Made by a program: the position numbers and the translations under genes. Below are positions 1 to 12,922 of a stretch of 41,105 bases of DNA, in pieces. Within the stretch, counting starts at the first letter, position 1, and each line of letters begins with the position of its first letter. Source of the stretch: a virus. The stretch is from the IMG/VR virus record IMGVR_UViG_3300025687_000105, positions 1-41,105 of that record, one strand, 5' to 3'. The notes under the pieces are model-generated. The model was not told the origin of the DNA. It saw only the letters and a list, made by a program, of their open reading frames with translations, and did no database searches.

Positions 1-112
1 TTTCGCCGTCGAGTCTGATGGCGCGGAGTCCTTCGATGAGGCCGAGGCCGAGCATCCCGGTTCCGGCTGCGAGTTCAAAGATTTCAAGGGGTGGTATAGC
101 CACATTAGTCAC
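1..112 (-). CDS. DNA cytosine-C5 methyltransferase, N-terminal fragment (runs off the window)
   Basis: Leftward reading frame starting at GTG 112-110, whose GTG overlaps the TGA of the upstream HTH gene; a GGAGG lies 4 nt before it. The visible N-terminus has FELAAGTGMLGLGL at about residues 12-25. This resembles motif I (SAM-binding loop) of phage C5-cytosine methyltransferases, where FxGxGG-like loops follow a short beta strand. Only 37 codons are present, so the PC and ENV catalytic motifs cannot be seen. The gene leaves the window at position 1; a plausible C-terminal part enters at 41105. A different class I methyltransferase is possible. Expected role: protection of phage DNA from host restriction. 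Confidence 0.55.
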   Translation of the reverse strand, partial: MTNVAIPPLEIFELAAGTGMLGLGLIEGLRAIRLDGE

Positions 113-390
113 GCTGCCTCCGTCTTGTTGGTTAGGCTGTCTAAATACCAGTCCGCAAGTTCATTCAACGTCTTGCGAGTCTCAGCACTAAAATTGCCGT
201 CACAGGCGTAGGCGCGGTGAAGCGAAACCCACCGCGCCACGTCGGCAACACTCACCATGCGCCGCGCGCCGATACGCCCGTGATCCATGCCAGCATCGCA
301 CCAACGCAGGATTGTGCGTGCGCTCACGCCGACGATGGCAGCGATGTGCGGGGTCGTGGTTCGTGCTGTCTTGCCCTGTGCGATGTTCAT
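109..390 (-). CDS. small helix-turn-helix DNA-binding protein (MerR/excisionase-like)
   Basis: 93 aa. The N-terminal half carries a winged-helix/HTH pattern: HIAAIVGVSARTILRWCDAG (about residues 15-34) gives the turn and recognition helix, and the wing region RIGARRMVSVADVARWV follows, as in MerR/Xis-like phage DNA-binding proteins that read a short site. The ATG (390-388) overlaps the stop of the replication-like gene as ATGA, with GGAGG 4 nt upstream. Its stop overlaps the GTG of the methyltransferase gene. A regulator or replication accessory role is inferred from position only; the target is unknown. Confidence 0.6.
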   Translation of the reverse strand: MNIAQGKTARTTTPHIAAIVGVSARTILRWCDAGMDHGRIGARRMVSVADVARWVSLHRAYACDGNFSAETRKTLNELADWYLDSLTNKTEAA

Positions 391-3102: not shown

Positions 3103-3336
3103 CTACTTTGAACGGAGAGCGCCAAACACAAACATGCCAACCACGGCCAGTACCGCGACAACAACCGTTTGCCAGCGCACCTGCCCCGCCATAATTTGCG
3201 CAGCAAGCATCACCTCGCACACCAACGCCAAGAGCATGTAGCCGAAGATAATCCAGTCAACCCACGTCCAGCCACAGGCGATGCGTGAGGCGCGGCAGTT
3301 GGGGGCGATGGGGTGTATGTCGTTGGTGCATTTCAT
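3103..3336 (-). CDS. small membrane protein
   Basis: 77 aa. Two hydrophobic stretches look like membrane helices: about residues 25-48 (VDWIIFGYMLLALVCEVMLA) and 55-74 (WQTVVVAVLAVVGMFVFGAL). The N-terminal 20 residues are polar with two cysteines. The start codon overlaps the GHKL gene stop as ATGA, so the two are translationally coupled. No family recognised; position does not indicate a lysis role. Confidence 0.55.
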   Translation of the reverse strand: MKCTNDIHPIAPNCRASRIACGWTWVDWIIFGYMLLALVCEVMLAAQIMAGQVRWQTVVVAVLAVVGMFVFGALRSK

Positions 3337-4676: not shown

Positions 4677-4753
4677 AGGCCACCTCCCGCAATCTCATCC
4701 CACTCCGGCGCGTTTGGATCGTCAACGATTCTTTGTGCTTGTTTCAAGTTCAT
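4673..4753 (-). CDS. 26-aa small protein
   Basis: A 26-codon frame beginning MNLKQAQRIV and ending EWDEIAGGGL. ATG 4753-4751 follows GAAGGGTAATAAC, a copy of the element found before many accessory genes. Its stop overlaps the GTG of the GHKL gene, and its end encodes the GGAGGTGG ribosome site for that gene. It could be a leader peptide for translational coupling rather than a functional protein. Confidence 0.45.
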   Translation of the reverse strand: MNLKQAQRIVDDPNAPEWDEIAGGGL

Positions 4754-4757
4754 GTTA

Positions 4758-5108
4758 TTACCCTTCGTGAAGCGCCAAGTCTGCGCGTTGATCCTCTGAT
4801 TCCGTTTGCGGGTCAACCGCAAGCATGTCATCCAGTTCAATTTCCATGAAACCCTGCACAAACGCATCGACCGCCTGCTGGTCAATCGACGGGAGCATGA
4901 GGTAGCAATCCACCTCATCGTCATTCAGTACGGGGCAGCGGAGGTAGGCGTGGGCTGTGAAGTCAAGCACCTGGCCGTCGATCCTCTCGCCGTACTTGCG
5001 GACGTACGTGGGCGGTCGATAGGTAACGTCGGCGGTGATGTATGCGCCGACGCCGCCGGATAGGGGGTGGCTGATGCCTATGTCGAAGGTTTTGGTGATG
5101 CGGTTCAT
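4758..5108 (-). CDS. hypothetical protein
   Basis: 116 aa, acidic. The first half is predicted beta-rich (GGVGAYITADVTYRPPTYVR, about residues 18-37); the second half is strongly acidic (GFMEIELDDMLAVDPQTESE). No family recognised. The ATG overlaps the CsrA stop as ATGA. The TAA stop lies inside the GAAGGGTAAT element preceding the 26-aa gene, so translation of this gene runs straight into that initiation site. Function unknown. Confidence 0.55.
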   Translation of the reverse strand: MNRITKTFDIGISHPLSGGVGAYITADVTYRPPTYVRKYGERIDGQVLDFTAHAYLRCPVLNDDEVDCYLMLPSIDQQAVDAFVQGFMEIELDDMLAVDPQTESEDQRADLALHEG

Positions 5109-5293
5109 TTTGCACCACCCTTCACAGCGTCAACTTCTTCCCGGTCGATCCTGACGTTGCGCGGGAGGTCAAAGCCGATGGACGCCTTGTTCATTGTCCG
5201 AACCTCTGACAGCACTACCTTGCCGATCAGTTCCCCGGTATCTGCCCGTCGCAGGATTACCGATTCGCCGACGTGTCGCTCAAGTACGAGCAT
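5105..5293 (-). CDS. csrA: CsrA-family RNA-binding regulator
   Basis: 62 aa, the family's usual size. It begins MLVLERHVGESV, matching the CsrA beta-1 strand MLxLxRxxGE with Leu4 and Arg6, and ends NVRIDREEV, matching the beta-5 motif VxVHREE whose Arg contacts RNA. The middle (ADTGELIGKVVLSE) has a few extra residues relative to E. coli CsrA. CsrA dimers bind GGA motifs in RNA loops and control translation or stability. ATG preceded by GGAAGGAATCCC. Encoded early in the operon, it may remodel host translation or act on phage RNAs, such as the candidate small RNA at 6051-6128, which contains GGA triplets. Confidence 0.8.
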   Translation of the reverse strand: MLVLERHVGESVILRRADTGELIGKVVLSEVRTMNKASIGFDLPRNVRIDREEVDAVKGGAK

Positions 5294-5415: not shown

Positions 5416-5607
5416 TCACTCCCCGTCTTTTACGTTCCCAACTTCCATATCCCTGATCGCACCGGGGTGGATGCGGTACAAGCGGCCAAGCCGGATGTGC
5501 GGGATTTCGTTTGTGTGGAGTCGGCGCATGATCGTGTCACGCGAAACTCCAAGCAGTTTTGCGGTTTGGTCAACCGACAACCATTTTGTTTGTTGTTTGT
5601 CTGCCAT
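5416..5607 (-). CDS. helix-turn-helix (MerR/excisionase-type) DNA-binding protein
   Basis: 63 aa. It contains LSVDQTAKLLGVSRDTIMRR (about residues 10-29), then IPHIRLGRLYRIHPGAI, the classical HTH_17/excisionase pattern of helix-turn-helix plus wing. It is the promoter-proximal gene of the leftward early operon. There is no Shine-Dalgarno: the promoter -10 lies 7 nt before the ATG, so the mRNA is probably leaderless. With no integrase present, a role as transcriptional regulator or origin-binding protein fits better than excision; the repeats at 5688-5731 are candidate targets. Confidence 0.7.
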   Translation of the reverse strand: MADKQQTKWLSVDQTAKLLGVSRDTIMRRLHTNEIPHIRLGRLYRIHPGAIRDMEVGNVKDGE

Positions 5608-5614
5608 GTCAACC

Positions 5615-5642
5615 AGTATAGTGCTATGTTCTGCGGTGTCAA
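5615..5642 (-). promoter_or_regulatory. strong sigma70-type promoter of the leftward early operon
   Basis: Leftward -35 TTGACA (5642-5637), 16-nt spacer, -10 TATACT (5620-5615). The expected start site is at or next to the ATG of the HTH gene (5607), implying a leaderless transcript. Confidence 0.8.
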
Positions 5643-5687
5643 GCGTGATTGTTGGGAATTGTGAGAAAAAGGGGAAAAATATATTAC

Positions 5688-5731
5688 TTGGTTCGTTTTG
5701 GTTGGCTTTGGTTCATATTGGCTCGTTTTGG
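5688..5731. repeat. iteron-like repeats upstream of the early promoter
   Basis: On the + strand TTGGTTCGTTTTGG (5688-5701) and TTGGCTCGTTTTGG (5718-5731) are near-identical direct repeats 30 bp apart (about three helical turns). A partial TTGGCTTTGGTT lies between them and another TTGACT after. They sit about 50-90 bp upstream of the -35 of the early promoter. Candidate operator or replication-initiator binding sites. Confidence 0.55.
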
Positions 5732-6050
5732 TTGACTGTCGCGCATACTTGCGAAGGGTTATGCGGGGATGCGCATGTTTGTTTTGCTGCGCCAGCACAG
5801 CGTAGATCAGAGCAGTTGAGGCGCAAAGACCCCATTTCGGGGGGTCTGTTGCGACAGCGTGAGATCGTCACAGCGTCGGCTTTAGACCAGCACCTTTCGA
5901 CCTTTTGCGACGGCAGGGTGGGGTGCTGCTCCCCCTCGTGATTGCTCACGGCTTGCCGCAGGGTTGCGTTGGCAAGTCTCAGGCGTGTTCCGTCTGTCTA
6001 ACTGACTACTGCGACGTAAGCATGGTCCCCGCAGGGGTGGGCCGACGCGC
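5732..6050. other. non-coding, hairpin-rich control region
   Basis: No convincing gene. A 78-codon leftward frame (5949-5713, GTG start) exists but has odd, Cys/Pro-rich composition and ends in the repeats. Clear inverted repeats are AGACCCC/GGGGTCT at 5827-5847, CGTGA/TCACG at 5937-5950 and CTTGCC/GGCAAG at 5952-5976. I could not fit a tRNA cloverleaf. With the flanking repeats and the small RNA this is the best candidate for the replication origin or a regulatory hub. Confidence 0.4.
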
Positions 6051-6128
6051 AAAAAAACCGCCCTGATGCAGCCTGTCCAGCGCGTCAGAGCGGTTCGTTC
6101 CGGGGCAAGTTGTATGCTGGACAGGCAT
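6051..6128 (-). ncRNA. candidate ~78-nt small RNA with competing stems and an intrinsic terminator
   Basis: A promoter (6135-6164) should start RNA near 6128. Its first bases, GCCTGTCCAGC (6126-6116), are perfectly complementary over 11 bp to GCTGGACAGGC (6081-6071). Downstream, ACCGCTCTGA (6094-6085) and TCAGGGCGGT (6066-6057) form a 10-bp terminator stem followed by TTTTTT (6056-6051). The stems are interleaved (A-B-A'-B'), so they either form a pseudoknot or exclude each other, like an antiterminator and terminator. No reading frame of note lies within. GGA triplets occur in the 21-nt linker and in A', relevant because a CsrA homologue is encoded nearby. Confidence 0.6.
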
Positions 6129-6134
6129 GGCCGG

Positions 6135-6164
6135 ATATTACCCGACCGCGCTCGCCACTGTCAA
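6135..6164 (-). promoter_or_regulatory. promoter of the candidate small RNA
   Basis: Leftward TTGACA (6164-6159), 18-nt spacer, TAATAT (6140-6135). It lies directly after the stop of the 106-aa gene, and its predicted start falls at the first complementary arm of the RNA. Confidence 0.7.
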
Positions 6165-6169
6165 GCCCC

Positions 6170-6490
6170 TTACTTGCCTGATTCTTCCCCACGCTTCCAC
6201 GTGAGCCATTTTTGACAAATGCGAATTGACAGCGGCGTCGGCGTGTCGTCGGTGAAGTATTCTTCCATGATCTGCTGCACATCCATCATTGCGGCAAGCA
6301 CGTCGTGTTCGTGCATTTCTTCAACGAGGTCACCCCACGCCGCGTTCAGGTCGCGCGGCCAGTCGGGGCAACCGACGACAAGTATCTGGCCGTCGGCCAT
6401 GTACGTTGCACACGAAAGCCCGCGCCGCTCCGCAATTTCAACGCGCAGTTCTTCCGCGTCCATCTGCTCTACTGGTTTAAGGTCAGGCAT
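6170..6490 (-). CDS. conserved phage hypothetical protein
   Basis: 106 aa. Start chosen at ATG 6490 (MPDLKPVEQMDAEELRVEIA), with AAAGGAATCTTCC just upstream; a longer frame to 6574 overlaps the preceding small gene. The segments LKPVEQMDAEELRVEIAERRG and DWPRDLNAAWGDLVEEM are typical of a widespread phage family of about 100-130 aa with a D-L/I-xxAWxxxEEM core. Function unknown. It is coupled to the small TM gene by an ATGCCTGA overlap and is the last gene before the small RNA promoter. Confidence 0.6.
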   Translation of the reverse strand: MPDLKPVEQMDAEELRVEIAERRGLSCATYMADGQILVVGCPDWPRDLNAAWGDLVEEMHEHDVLAAMMDVQQIMEEYFTDDTPTPLSIRICQKWLTWKRGEESGK

Positions 6491-6599
6491 TGGAAGATTC
6501 CTTTCGCTTGCGCCACCACGCGGATGACGCTCTTTCAATTTTGATACCGATGAACGCGCCGCAGGATGACGCAATGAACACCCACCACAGGTCAGGCAT
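6483..6599 (-). CDS. 38-aa small membrane protein
   Basis: 38 codons: MPDLWWVFIASSCGAFIGIK, then a basic tail with WWRKRK. One hydrophobic helix (about residues 5-19) precedes a positively charged end, the topology of a small single-span inner-membrane protein. Start and stop both sit in ATGCCTGA overlaps: its ATG overlaps the stop of the 190-aa gene and its TGA overlaps the ATG of the 106-aa gene. The first four residues (MPDL) match the next protein, a trace of a small local duplication around the start site. Confidence 0.5.
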   Translation of the reverse strand: MPDLWWVFIASSCGAFIGIKIERASSAWWRKRKESSNA

Positions 6600-7164
6600 T
6601 GTGCTTACCCTCCCTTACGATGCGGGTTGCCTCGATTTGGGCGGCGCGGTGGGTGTCGAAGTATCTGGAGCTGTCGTGGCTTGGGTTCATCTTGACACCA
6701 TCCCACACAGCGATGGGGATGCACTGGCATATCCTCCACCGTCCACCATCAAGTTCGATGTAGATAAGATGCTCGGTGCGTAACTCATCAACCGTCATAA
6801 CATCCGGCTCTACCTGCTCGAAGGTGTCGAGGTTGATGGTGACGCGACCGACTTCCCGTGACTCTCTATCGCGCGGAACCCAATCGCACAAAGCAACGGA
6901 CCTCATGCCGTCCGTATGCTCGATGATGTAAACCATTTCCGTGCGCGGCTTCGGCTGGATGTTGCGGATGTGGCCGGGCGAGCGGTATCCATAGCCGCCT
7001 TGCATGTCGTATCGGAACACATGCCCGCCCCTGCTTTGGTCTTTGCCGATGTAAATAGCCTCCTTCCACACCGACGGTGAGCCGCCGTATTGCACTTCAC
7101 ACAACCCCCCGTCCTCATCCACGCACCTATCCACGTCGAACCCGTCTGTTTTCTGCTCAGTCAT
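6592..7164 (-). CDS. hypothetical protein
   Basis: 190 aa, no family recognised. The first half has glycine and aromatic-rich beta-type sequence (YIGKDQSRGGHVFRYDMQGG, about residues 38-57; GYGYRSPGHIRNIQP follows). The second half ends in DTHRAAQIEATRIVREGK, a helix often seen at the end of small phage proteins. ATG preceded by GAAAGGATAGTGTT. It follows the XRE-like gene by 4 nt, and its stop overlaps the small membrane gene, so it is part of one co-translated string. Confidence 0.6.
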   Translation of the reverse strand: MTEQKTDGFDVDRCVDEDGGLCEVQYGGSPSVWKEAIYIGKDQSRGGHVFRYDMQGGYGYRSPGHIRNIQPKPRTEMVYIIEHTDGMRSVALCDWVPRDRESREVGRVTINLDTFEQVEPDVMTVDELRTEHLIYIELDGGRWRICQCIPIAVWDGVKMNPSHDSSRYFDTHRAAQIEATRIVREGKHNA

Positions 7165-7168
7165 AACA

Positions 7169-7435
7169 CTATCCTTTCGTTGGGGTTTCCTTGTTTTCTT
7201 CCGCCGGCTGCACCCTCGGCAACCGCTTTGGCCAGGTCATTCGAGGCGGGCCGAGCGCGTCGAGGATGCGGTGAATGCGATCCCCGTACAGATCGCACTT
7301 CCCGCGCAGCCACAGGCTGATTTTGTCGTGGCCGATATTGCTCCGTCGCGCAAGCTCGCGCTGACTTGTTCCTGTCGCGTCCATGCGGGCGGCTACAAAT
7401 TGTCTGAGGTTGGTTGGTTCTTTGGGTGTTTGCAT
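7169..7435 (-). CDS. XRE/Cro-family repressor-like protein
   Basis: 88 aa. The HTH_XRE core spans about residues 9-65: LRQFVAARMDATGTSQRELA, then RRSNIGHDKISLWLRGK, with the canonical turn and recognition helix. There is no C-terminal oligomerisation or protease domain, so it is Cro-sized rather than CI-like. ATG with AAGGAAG about 9 nt upstream, inside the end of the previous gene. Candidate binders for its product are the two near-identical promoters at 10701-10728 and 12876-12903; this is inference. Confidence 0.7.
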   Translation of the reverse strand: MQTPKEPTNLRQFVAARMDATGTSQRELARRSNIGHDKISLWLRGKCDLYGDRIHRILDALGPPRMTWPKRLPRVQPAEENKETPTKG

Positions 7436-7804: not shown

Positions 7805-7969
7805 TGTGTTCTCTGCTTTCTTTCTGGTATGATGCTCGCATTACCCTTCAACCAGCGCGTGAGCGTTGATTGTGACCCTGCGGCGAGAGTCGTGGGGTTT
7901 TTTTGTGCGCGTTGCCTCGCGTGAGGCGGTAAACCCGCCCGCGCCCTTTCGAGCGAAGGCGGGGAAGGG
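7805..7969. other. intergenic region with hairpins and a displaced 5' element
   Basis: Contains TTGAAGGGTAAT on the - strand (7851-7840), a perfect hairpin GCCTC/GAGGC (7914-7927), and a GC-rich imperfect stem just after the preceding gene. On the + strand ACCC..CGGC-GAGA-GTCG..GGGT followed by seven T (7875-7904) looks like a terminator facing the opposite direction. No gene seen. Confidence 0.4.
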
Positions 7970-8954: not shown

Positions 8955-10240
8955 ACCTTCACCGCCTCGGCTTGTTCCGCTGGCGATGCTGCGGGTAGCG
9001 GCTTCTGCGGCTTGTCGGTGATGACGATGACGCGATAGCAGTCATTGTGATAAATCCGACGAACCTTGCACGCTGCGCCGTCGGGCGTGTTGCCGCAATA
9101 CTTGCGATGGGTGGGCTTGCCGGTTTCGTCGATATAAACGGGCTTAGCGGGCGAATACGTGCCTTTGCTCAAGGCGCTGTACTGGGCTTGAGTCATGCGG
9201 AACACTTCGCCGGGCTTGTCTTGGCTCATCCATGACGGTTTAGTGTTCCATGCCGCCTGGATGCGCTCGGCGTCCTCATCGGTGGGGTTAATGAGTTTGG
9301 GCGATTTGGCGTTGCGGGCTTTGGTTTTCGCCTTGCTCGCCTTTGTAATCTCGGCCAATTCTGCGAGCGATTCCGGGGTGGGCGGTGTGTAAACGCTTTC
9401 ACCGAACCGCTGCACGTTGATAAGCAGGGTATTGCCGCGGCGTCGATAATCCCACCCTTCGCCCTCTTGCTTTGGCGCGTGAACATTGACGGAAACAACC
9501 GCGCCTGTCGCGTTGGATTTGTTTACTTTGGTAATCAGGTGGCTCCCCAGCTTCCCGCCTGGCTTCATTTCGACATCGCCAGCGCTCCCGCCTTCGTTGG
9601 CGAGCATGGCACGCTCATATTCGAGGCGCAAGTTAAAATGCGCATCCCATCGCGGCGAATGCTTGCCCCATCGCCTCTGATCGGCCTCAAGCCTCAAAAT
9701 GCGAAGGCGTCGAGTTCTGGCGTCTGATTTGTGCAGTGCGTGGCTGATCACGCCGGCGGTGCGGTATTGCCAATACTCGGCCTTGGCCCATTGGCTGCAA
9801 GCCTTGCCGCCGATGCGGTCGCGTCTCGCTGCTGCGCGTTCGGCCTTGGCTGCGTTCTGGTGGCCGTAGGCGTCCGGGCTGGCTTCGTAGGTGTCGGCGA
9901 AGCCGTGAGCCTCTGCGCGTCGTTTCTCGCGGTACATGGCGAAGCGTTCGGCGCGATCGGCTGCGCGATCCTCTGGCGTTTCGTCTTCGTCGCCGATGTC
10001 GTCGCCGTCTGCGATCATCATAAATGCGGCATCTTCAGCGCGAGGCGACCACGTAGCTACAAAGCTGCACGATTGCTTTGGTGTGGCTTTGTAGCCGATG
10101 GCGCGAAGCCAAAGAAACGTGCTGCGCTCGACTCGATCCGTATAAAGCCGGATTTTATTGTCCTCTGGGCAGTACGTCGCGCTATAGCCTTCGTTGCATA
10201 GGTCTGTTTCGTCCGGTTTCATGGTTTCATCCTTGCCCAT
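8951..10240 (-). CDS. DUF3560 domain protein
   Basis: 429 aa from ATG 10240. The N-terminal ~140 residues match DUF3560: ATYCPEDNKIRLYTDRVE, then an FVATWSPRAEDAAF-like segment, an acidic stretch, and RAADRAERFAMYREKRRAEA. The middle is strongly basic/helical (ARRDRIGGKACSQWAKAEYW). The C-terminal third holds repeats of Lys/Ala-rich linker and a conserved CGNTPDGAACKVRRIYHNDC segment that could bind zinc. DUF3560 proteins occur on plasmids and phages beside antirestriction and methyltransferase genes; here the partner is an NPPF methyltransferase. Start chosen for the directly preceding TTGAAGGGTAATCAG element. Confidence 0.65.
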   Translation of the reverse strand: MGKDETMKPDETDLCNEGYSATYCPEDNKIRLYTDRVERSTFLWLRAIGYKATPKQSCSFVATWSPRAEDAAFMMIADGDDIGDEDETPEDRAADRAERFAMYREKRRAEAHGFADTYEASPDAYGHQNAAKAERAAARRDRIGGKACSQWAKAEYWQYRTAGVISHALHKSDARTRRLRILRLEADQRRWGKHSPRWDAHFNLRLEYERAMLANEGGSAGDVEMKPGGKLGSHLITKVNKSNATGAVVSVNVHAPKQEGEGWDYRRRGNTLLINVQRFGESVYTPPTPESLAELAEITKASKAKTKARNAKSPKLINPTDEDAERIQAAWNTKPSWMSQDKPGEVFRMTQAQYSALSKGTYSPAKPVYIDETGKPTHRKYCGNTPDGAACKVRRIYHNDCYRVIVITDKPQKPLPAASPAEQAEAVKV

Positions 10241-10273
10241 CTGATTACCCTTCAATCTGAGCGTGATTAAACT

Positions 10274-10330: not shown

Positions 10331-10654
10331 TCAGTCGATAGGTTTGGTTTGCGATATATGAAACACGGTAGCGGTACGTGGTCGCGCGCCGCCTTTGCGC
10401 GTCACCTTGCCGGCCGCGTCGCGCTTCTCGTTGATAGGTATCCACGTTGTAACCTTTATGCCCTTCTCGCCCTTCTTCACGACGCGGCCAATCGCCTTCC
10501 ATGCGTGAAACGTCAACACGTTGACGCGGGGTGTGATATCGTCCGGCGCGATACCCTTGTCCATGAATCCCGCGATTATCGCGGCATAGTTTGACGTTGA
10601 CAGGTTGCCGCGAGCGCGGCTCAATGCCTCTTGCTGAATCTCGATAGTTGTCAT
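10331..10654 (-). CDS. ArdC N-terminal-like (ssDNA-binding, antirestriction-type) protein
   Basis: 107 aa from ATG 10654 (MTTIEIQQEALSRARGNL). The segment TFHAWKAIGRVVKKGEKG (residues 48-65), followed by a beta-type stretch, matches the N-terminal domain of ArdC-like proteins (W..GR.V.KGEKG), which bind single-stranded DNA and protect incoming DNA from restriction. The C-terminal metallopeptidase domain of full ArdC is absent. It has its own promoter (10701-10728) with a ~40-nt leader carrying TTGAAGGGTAAA just before the start. Confidence 0.6.
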   Translation of the reverse strand: MTTIEIQQEALSRARGNLSTSNYAAIIAGFMDKGIAPDDITPRVNVLTFHAWKAIGRVVKKGEKGIKVTTWIPINEKRDAAGKVTRKGGARPRTATVFHISQTKPID

Positions 10655-10700
10655 TGCTTTACCCTTCAATGATGGTGAGTTGTCCAGTCAATCCGATACC

Positions 10701-10734: not shown

Positions 10735-11085
10735 TTATGCGACGTAAACCAGCCCATCGTCGCCGATATACAGGCTTGATTTGCCCATATTTTGGCAAAT
10801 CTCGGTAAGTTTATCGCCAATCTCTCCAAGTCCACGATCCCAGAAGCCTACGCCGTGGCCGTTGCGCGTAAGCCAAATATCGTGACCGATTTGGGCAAGG
10901 TCGATACCGTCGAGCAGGTCGCCGGCTGCATTCTCGAACCATTCAATATCGGCCTCCATCGACGCGACGGCTTCCGGCGATATGTCGGCTGCGCTATGTT
11001 TTTTGTCGAGTGGTTCGCCGTCGTCATCGGATGATGACCATAAGGCGCATTCGATATAGCTCGATAGTGTTTTATTTCCATACAT
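10735..11085 (-). CDS. conserved phage hypothetical protein
   Basis: 116 aa from ATG 11085, directly after TTGAAGGGTAATCAA. Recognised segments are YIECALWSSSDDDGEPLDKK (residues 9-28) and HDIWLTRNGHGVGFWDRGLG (about 77-96). These are hallmarks of a widespread phage family (ALWxSxDExGxPLD ... GHDFWLTRNGHGAGFWDRG) of unknown function, often in early regions. Acidic overall. The stop lies just before the -35 of the next promoter. Confidence 0.65.
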   Translation of the reverse strand: MYGNKTLSSYIECALWSSSDDDGEPLDKKHSAADISPEAVASMEADIEWFENAAGDLLDGIDLAQIGHDIWLTRNGHGVGFWDRGLGEIGDKLTEICQNMGKSSLYIGDDGLVYVA

Positions 11086-11116
11086 TTGATTACCCTTCAA
11101 TGATGCGTTGCGAATC

Positions 11117-11176: not shown

Positions 11177-11929
11177 TTAAATGCCTGCACCATGCTGCAA
11201 ACCTACGGACTGGGCGCAATGTTCAGCCATTGCGATAGCCTCGGCCTTGCAATCATCCTCGCCGTAGAATCCCCAACATGATTCGAGCGTATCGCCTTCA
11301 TCATCCTCGATGATGAACCCGTAAACGTCGCCGGTTAGGTATTGATCGTAGGTTTCAACTTCACCGCGCAGGTATCTTTCGGCCTTGTCCCGATCGCCTT
11401 GCCATTCGTCGGCGATTGTCTGCGGTGTTAAGTAAATGTAGCCGACCTGCCCGCTATCCCAGGGGCAGGAAAACGCGCCTACGCTCATGCTGATACCGCT
11501 ATGGTCATAAAGATAAAGCGGGAGAATGACGTAACCGGCAGATTCGAGCGCATCAATGATGGACAGTTTGACGCCGTTGTTGAGCGCGTCTGATATGTAA
11601 TCTTGCAGCATATCGCGCTTGTCTCCGCCATTGTCGCGCCAATATCGGTAGTAATCGGCGTAATCGTCTCGGCCATAGTCTGCGCGTATCGCTTCAATGG
11701 CAATGGCGCGGATGGCCTCATCGGTCATAGATTCTGCCGCATCGGTGAACAGGTCGGCGAACAAGGCGTCGGGGTCGGCATGGTTGTGCTTATCGCCCAG
11801 GTCATACCGATTGTGCCAGCAAACCATAACGCCGGCGTTGTCCCAGTCTCGCGGGTTCATTGGATCATCATCGGACATAATCTTGACGGTGAGGCCGTGC
11901 GCGGTGAATTGATCGTGTTCGTAAGACAT
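11177..11929 (-). CDS. conserved hypothetical protein (acidic, ArdA-like in character)
   Basis: 250 aa from ATG 11929, after TTGAAGGGTAATCAA. Very acidic. It holds MVCWHNRYDLGDKHNHADPD (about residues 35-54), ILPLYLYDHSGISMSVGAFS (about 135-154) and CPWDSGQVGYIYL just after, then a YDQYLTGDVYGFIIED block. I remember this arrangement from a broadly distributed phage/plasmid protein of unknown function. Strong acidity and the accessory context recall DNA-mimic antirestriction proteins, but no ArdA domain is claimed. Confidence 0.6.
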   Translation of the reverse strand: MSYEHDQFTAHGLTVKIMSDDDPMNPRDWDNAGVMVCWHNRYDLGDKHNHADPDALFADLFTDAAESMTDEAIRAIAIEAIRADYGRDDYADYYRYWRDNGGDKRDMLQDYISDALNNGVKLSIIDALESAGYVILPLYLYDHSGISMSVGAFSCPWDSGQVGYIYLTPQTIADEWQGDRDKAERYLRGEVETYDQYLTGDVYGFIIEDDEGDTLESCWGFYGEDDCKAEAIAMAEHCAQSVGLQHGAGI

Positions 11930-11965
11930 TTGATTACCCTTCAATTGATGGTTGCGAATCAGTGA

Positions 11966-12136
11966 TTAGACGGTTTTGGGCTTGGCGTAGGTTATGACAG
12001 CACCATCGGACCACGAGACGGTTTTGATCGGAACAAGGCCAAGGTTTTCAAGGTGCTGTTTTTTGCGCTCAGCTTTCTTAATGCTTTCTTCGCTTGTCCA
12101 GTTAATAAACACGTCGTTTGGGTGTTCGTTTCGCAT
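11966..12136 (-). CDS. 56-aa hypothetical protein
   Basis: 56 codons from ATG 12136 (MRNEHPNDVFINWTSEESIK) to TAA. Basic central helix (KKAERKKQHLENLGL), then a beta-hairpin-like end (PIKTVSWSDGAVITYAKPKT). The element TTGAAGGGTAATACAA sits immediately before the start, as for its neighbours, which supports it as a real gene despite its size. No family recognised. Confidence 0.6.
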   Translation of the reverse strand: MRNEHPNDVFINWTSEESIKKAERKKQHLENLGLVPIKTVSWSDGAVITYAKPKTV

Positions 12137-12217
12137 TTGTATTACCCTTCAAAAAGTGGTGGTGAGGCGGACAGTAAAGGCATGGCGAACCTGTTAAGGC
12201 GCGCCGTGCGATAGGTG

Positions 12218-12568
12218 TTATTCATCGTCGCCATAGTCGCCATACATATCGGTGAGCGCGTCTCGCGCTTCTGCCTCAGTCTCATACAAACTCCAGTCTG
12301 TACAATCCGTGTAACCGGGAGCGGACATGCGCGCCAAGTAACCCTCGGCAAGCTCGATCGACACAATCTTGCCATCGACATAATCACGCAAGGTGTTGCA
12401 TGCGTGAATAAACTCATTGGTTACTTCATCATCGTCCATGTAATCGCCAACGGCCTCAAGACCGTCAATGACTCCGCAAACGTCGGAAGGCACGACAAAC
12501 GATCCCCAATAATCTGTTTCGATAACGTATGCGAACCCCTGCTCAATCTGTTGTTGCATGAATGACAT
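12218..12568 (-). CDS. conserved phage hypothetical protein
   Basis: 116 aa, acidic. The C-terminal segment GYLARMSAPGYTDCTDWSLY (about residues 77-96), followed by ETEAEARDALTDMYG, is a conserved end I recognise from small phage and plasmid proteins (GYxARxSAPGYxDCTDW). Function unknown. ATG 12568 follows TTGAAGGGTAAAAACA. The preceding gene ends about 40 nt upstream. Confidence 0.6.
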   Translation of the reverse strand: MSFMQQQIEQGFAYVIETDYWGSFVVPSDVCGVIDGLEAVGDYMDDDEVTNEFIHACNTLRDYVDGKIVSIELAEGYLARMSAPGYTDCTDWSLYETEAEARDALTDMYGDYGDDE

Positions 12569-12607
12569 TGTTTTTACCCTTCAAATAGTGGTGGATATTA
12601 ACTGTGA

Positions 12608-12817
12608 TTAGACTTCAAATTCGCCATAACCGTCTCGCATAATGCGCTCAACGGTGGACCATGCAAATTCGGCTTGATATGTTCCGCAGAATGATCCAAC
12701 CGTAGCAAAGCGGTTAAGGCGGCCGGTCACTTTGCCCGGCTCACCGTTAATTGTGCAAATATGGCCAGCGTAGTCATTGGCGATATCTTGCGTAGTTCGG
12801 TACGGCTTGTTTTTCAT
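12608..12817 (-). CDS. 69-aa hypothetical protein, first gene of the accessory operon
   Basis: 69 aa from ATG 12817 (MKNKPYRTTQDIANDYAGHI). It is followed by beta-rich sequence (TINGEPGKVTGRLNRFATVG) suggestive of a small SH3/OB-like barrel, and ends with an aromatic/acidic tail. A longer TTG start would add five codons that simply read through the TTGAAGGGTAATACA element. Promoter at 12876-12903; leader about 50 nt. Function unknown. Confidence 0.55.
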   Translation of the reverse strand: MKNKPYRTTQDIANDYAGHICTINGEPGKVTGRLNRFATVGSFCGTYQAEFAWSTVERIMRDGYGEFEV

Positions 12818-12875
12818 TGTATTACCCTTCAAATGACGGTGAATTGTTCAGCAATCACGTCGATTACATGCCCTA

Positions 12876-12903: not shown

Positions 12904-12922
12904 GGGGTGTTTAGATGTTTTT

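Follow-up and report, generated by a model that had tools for sequence, protein, structure and literature searches.

The element under study lies on the minus strand at positions 6051-6164 of a 41-kb window (the whole stretch of DNA that was analysed) and is known from one uncultured phage genome. Immediately upstream is a leftward gene (6170-6490, minus strand) encoding a 106-residue protein with no family assignment, which ends 5 nt before a -35-like hexamer, and further upstream a small HTH protein is also encoded leftward (7169-7435). The next gene downstream, which is equipped with a promoter-like site of its own (5642-5615), specifies an HTH_17/excisionase-like DNA-binding protein (5416-5607, minus strand). 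A CsrA-like protein (5105-5293, minus strand; 29.2 bits against Pfam CsrA, cut-off 27) is encoded 0.8 kb downstream of the element, and further on are genes for a Sak4-like protein with a replication function (2980-2087) and a replication-initiation-like protein (1277-387). The element stands at the start of a 562-bp gap (5608-6169) where none of the ORFs scores positively for coding, and is thus located outside any gene, as an earlier note on this DNA had stated.

Several other features of the window were observed. The promoter-like site of the HTH_17 gene, TTGACA-16-TATACT (in the region 5642-5607), ends only 7 nt before the ATG and the resulting transcript would therefore be leaderless. Just upstream of this site, at 5688-5737, five head-to-tail 10-bp repeats (TTGGTTCGTT-like) with helical spacing adjoin an A+T-rich stretch; these could be sites of the excisionase-like protein or origin iterons. 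A common leader, TTGAAGGGTAA(T), is found ahead of the start codons in eight or more of the early leftward genes, with sites at 4749-4766, 7840-7862, 10236-10266, 10651-10685, 11081-11116, 11925-11960, 12134-12163, 12566-12595 and 12813-12842, and could be a ribosome-binding leader common to them or a regulatory site that they share. The CsrA-like protein had no tblastn match in 50,697 phage records and no relative in the PDB by sequence. At 109-390 (minus strand) an HTH protein scores above the cut-off for DUF1580, which we take to be a planctomycete family and thus a hint to the host.

Read leftward in the 5' to 3' direction, the minus strand presents the end of the 106-residue gene, TTGACA, TAATAT, four pairing segments in the order A, B, A' and B', and a run of T. 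The promoter-like arrangement TTGACA-N18-TAATAT is present as described earlier, with the -35-like hexamer at 6164-6159 and the -10-like hexamer at 6140-6135, and it places the predicted start (+1) at 6128, next to the first arm. This arm, A (GCCTGTCCAGC, 6116-6126), starts 2 nt past the +1 and forms a perfect 11-bp pair (6126-6116 with 6081-6071) with A' (GCTGGACAGGC), which, again as claimed, sits between the two arms of a terminator stem, B (AACCGCTCTGA, 6085-6095) and B' (TCAGGGCGGTT, 6056-6066). The linkers are 20 nt (A-B), 3 nt (B-A') and 4 nt (A'-B'). The terminator stem and T-run had been correctly recognised but undersized: the stem AACCGCTCTGA/TCAGGGCGGTT comprises 11 bp, one of them U-G, rather than 10 bp, and is followed by T7 (6051-6057, with two T also paired in the stem) rather than T6. 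The -35-like hexamer is also part of a further arm, P (TTGACAGTGGCG, 6153-6164), which pairs over 12 bp, including one G-U, with P' (CGCCGCTGTCAA, 6226-6237) within the 3' end of the upstream gene, and which is a weaker alternative partner of A. A hairpin, GGUCGGGU/AUCCGGCC, at 6130-6150 has the -10-like TAATAT at its loop.

The hairpin formed by B and B' has a predicted folding energy of -24.7 kcal/mol and its G+C-rich stem carries the T-run (6057-6051) directly 3', displaying both sequence features of an intrinsic terminator, a stable G+C-rich stem-loop and a T-run directly after the stem. Its position, right behind the stop codon of the 6490-6170 gene, is at the end of a leftward block of which this gene is the last. 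The window contains 14 runs of six or more T, four of which, including that at 6051, follow a strong compact hairpin; the T-run at 12918, which follows a loose 60-nt fold, was left out of the four. B:B' together with T7 is, as a prediction, a convincing intrinsic terminator.

The significance of the upstream arm and of the promoter-like hexamers was assessed against chance, using statistics that were picked after the feature had been seen, so the figures are rough. TTGACA-N18-TAATAT matches the promoter consensus at 10 of 12 positions; five such sites were found in 8 kb against 4.4 expected, and the match therefore provides no evidence on its own. Similarly, the window contains two perfect inverted repeats of at least 11 bp with a gap of up to 60 nt, compared with 0.68 expected, and one of the two lies inside a gene; taken alone, arm A is thus weak. 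Given this terminator, however, a second-order Markov model puts the probability that the 85 nt upstream contain a perfect 11-nt complement to the loop at ~1e-4, the model being that of the window, or at 4e-4 over the four terminators. The minus strand as a whole contains 12 stems of 11 bp or more when no more than one G-U and a gap of up to 90 nt are allowed, and three of these longest stems are located within 6237-6056, namely A:A', B:B' and P:P' (6237-6226 with 6164-6153). If B' is constrained to stay unpaired, the most stable alternative to the terminator lies 3.7 kcal/mol higher, compared with a mean of 14.4 kcal/mol in controls carrying shuffled or genomic upstream 33-mers, and only 11 of 2,000 controls of either kind match the real gap. 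The 79-nt RNA has a folding z of -2.6, and ~5% of the 120-nt windows of the genome reach -2.7. The improbability of the complement, the small gap between the rival folds and the clustering of long stems indicate that arm A is probably not accidental.

Structure predictions placed the two folds close together in energy. In an 84-nt RNA (6128-6045) the A:A' fold is at -30.2 kcal/mol and the terminator fold at -30.5 kcal/mol, while for the RNA ending at 6051 the gaps at 37 °C were 2.4, 0.8, 0.1 and 4.2 kcal/mol with four parameter sets, the terminator being favoured in every case. When elongation was simulated as the equilibrium folding of growing 5' fragments, A:A' formed with P > 0.99 from the point at which seven of its pairs were available until B' had nearly emerged, after which the terminator took over. 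In H-type pseudoknots a linker of 4 nt is short for crossing an 11-bp stem; because A' and B' are separated by such a linker, it is unlikely that A:A' and B:B' are fully paired at the same time. The mutual exclusion of the two stems favoured in the earlier note finds some support in silico, with folds 0.1-4.2 kcal/mol apart and A:A' forming first. At equilibrium the terminator prevails for most transcript starts (P 0.68-0.99). The probability of A:A' is 0.97 for a 5' end at 6300, 0.31 at 6250, 0.07 at 6245 and 0.00 at 6200-6168, and this swing with the chosen 5' end shows that the energetics are fragile. In transcripts lacking P', arm P can pair with A, with a probability of 0.63 when transcription starts at 6200 and 0.87 when it starts at 6180. 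These modelled structures suggest a chain of alternative pairings that could be biased by a ribosome finishing the upstream gene.

The most economical reading of these data is that an intrinsic terminator at the end of an operon is made conditional, in the manner of an attenuator, by the upstream arm A; we hold this reading tentatively, as the best single account although one that falls somewhat short of an even chance. The leftward operon, with 6490-6170 as its final gene, would end at the B:B' stem and its T-run. Arm A, being complementary to the loop segment A', would fold first into the rival hairpin A:A', and this hairpin may hinder formation of the terminator. The outcome would be a conditional terminator placed between that operon and the downstream HTH_17, CsrA and replication genes, with the balance presumably set by ribosomes completing the upstream gene, by a protein or by the speed of elongation. 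What the analysis shows is the anatomy of the sequence, a terminator of good predicted quality, an arm that is improbable once the terminator is given, and predicted folds that are nearly degenerate; that they constitute a switch in the cell is plausible from the models. Against a conditional terminator stand the fragile energetics, the occurrence in a single genome, the lack of common bases between A and B, and the promoter-like site that the HTH_17 gene possesses itself. A more elaborate version, in which translation or a protein acts through the chain P', P, A and A' to decide whether A:A' topologically blocks B:B', thereby coupling the early operons, is quite improbable.

In one rival reading B:B' is an ordinary operon terminator, and both the promoter-like hexamers and the complementary arm arose by coincidence and serve no function. 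This would fit the location right behind the last gene of the leftward block, the chance-level count of promoter-like sites, the count of two perfect 11-bp inverted repeats (one of which is in a gene) against 0.68 expected and the lack of conservation evidence for the arm. It leaves unexplained the ~1e-4 probability of the arm given the terminator, the rival-fold gap matched by so few controls and the concentration of long stems in 6237-6056, and we regard it as unlikely. The arms could instead be sites in the DNA, at the predicted start and in the terminator respectively, to which a dimeric regulator of the phage binds, rather than the two strands of an RNA stem. Indeed, a 15-mer with partial symmetry, ATGCCTGTCCAGCAT, lies at the predicted +1 and has arm A in its centre, and small HTH proteins are encoded nearby (7169-7435 and 5416-5607). 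Further copies of the motif are no more frequent in the window than chance predicts, however, and symmetry around A' is poor, making this explanation very improbable.

The main rival of the conditional terminator is a free-standing phage RNA of ~78 nt, extending from ~6128 to ~6051, which would resemble the OOP RNA of phage lambda in layout and act in trans or by occupying the surroundings of a possible origin. Lambda OOP is a 77-nt RNA transcribed from a pO-oop-tO unit with its own promoter and terminator (PMC12197685; PMC5869508). The similarity in size, the +1 at 6128 that TTGACA-N18-TAATAT sets next to arm A, the compact promoter-RNA-terminator arrangement in a non-coding gap and the 10-bp direct repeats ~310 bp downstream are all consistent with such an RNA. 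Conversely, compared with the promoter-like site in front of the HTH_17 gene, the spacer here is longer and the -10 hexamer a worse match, the TTGACA is also part of the 12-bp stem P:P' with the end of the upstream gene, and promoter matches occur at chance frequency (5 versus 4.4). The plus strand of 5608-6169 contains no ORF with a positive coding score, and the RNA therefore lacks the opposing gene expected of an OOP-like antisense RNA; nor did its pairing to the starts of the window's genes exceed that of random 35-mers. The copy-control or antisense role envisaged in the earlier note finds no support in these two results. Rfam returned no match at the gathering score and none credible at E up to 10, and membership of a known RNA family was rejected. 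For the proposed ~78-nt RNA with its own promoter, the promoter is no better than chance and the site is just past a stop codon, where an operon terminator is expected. With a chance-level promoter whose TTGACA lies within P:P', such a free RNA may exist but is not the preferred reading, and we consider it doubtful.

Three other candidates for the element were rejected. The RNA had been suggested to bind CsrA, but its GGA triplets number two (at 6101 and 6078) where 1.0 would be expected, ANGGA is absent, and a CsrA sponge was discarded; as the GGA at 6078 is in the apical loop when the terminator folds, weak binding of CsrA at this position is possible. A leaderless 40-codon ORF starting at 6128 has a negative coding score and would contain the terminator. 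A tRNA was likewise rejected.

Relatives carrying the element were sought in phage and plasmid DNA and, by DNA patterns and protein scans, in IMG/VR, and none was found. A distant blastn search of the region against phages and plasmids yielded nothing significant. In IMG/VR the exact-arm pattern matched once, in a coding-like stretch (judged to be a chance hit), and the terminator pattern did not match; protein scans returned no relatives of the upstream gene 6490-6170 and only a 43-residue fragment match for 6592-7164. The TerL scan retrieved 78 loci, among them a near-identical contig that stops near 9262, and in the 34 records searched from these loci only short chance words match the region. 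All 44 loci from the Sak4 scan are without the region, and a joint HTH/CsrA/7439 query returned no locus. A protein scan with the 3333-4676 gene (minus strand) pointed to a 39-kb contig, L090, which shares this gene at 98% DNA identity and has a close relative of 3103-3336 but does not contain the element. Such identity with an otherwise largely different phage contig suggests, from sequence comparison, a recent exchange of the 3333-4676 gene.

Should arm A control read-through, the element would offer a compact, naturally occurring example of termination governed by topological exclusion instead of shared bases, and could serve as a simple model of co-transcriptional folding. Otherwise an ordinary operon terminator is left; the element is for now a well-formed candidate, seen in a single uncultured phage.

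The element was compared with several known systems. It resembles intrinsic (rho-independent) terminators in its G+C-rich 11-bp stem, its T7 and its position immediately behind the final gene of a leftward block, but differs in that its 18-nt loop contains an 11-nt perfect complement to an upstream segment. Lambda OOP is likewise a short promoter-RNA-terminator unit in a phage early region; in contrast, the element has no opposite-strand gene, no Rfam match and a promoter that is not above chance. The CsrA-sequestering RNAs of the CsrB/RsmZ type are brought to mind by the CsrA-like gene 0.8 kb away and the single GGA in the apical loop of the terminator, although these RNAs display repeated GGA hairpins, typically with ANGGA in the loops, whereas here there are only two GGA, neither within ANGGA. 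With the trp-type attenuators and riboswitch expression platforms the element would have in common a pair of rival folds, predicted to be similarly stable and with the upstream fold forming first; no ligand domain or leader peptide was recognised here, however, and the element is located at the end of an operon and not just ahead of a gene. In classical antiterminators the rival stem shares bases with the terminator stem. In the order A-B-A'-B', A:A' and B:B' have no bases in common, and exclusion of one by the other would thus be topological.
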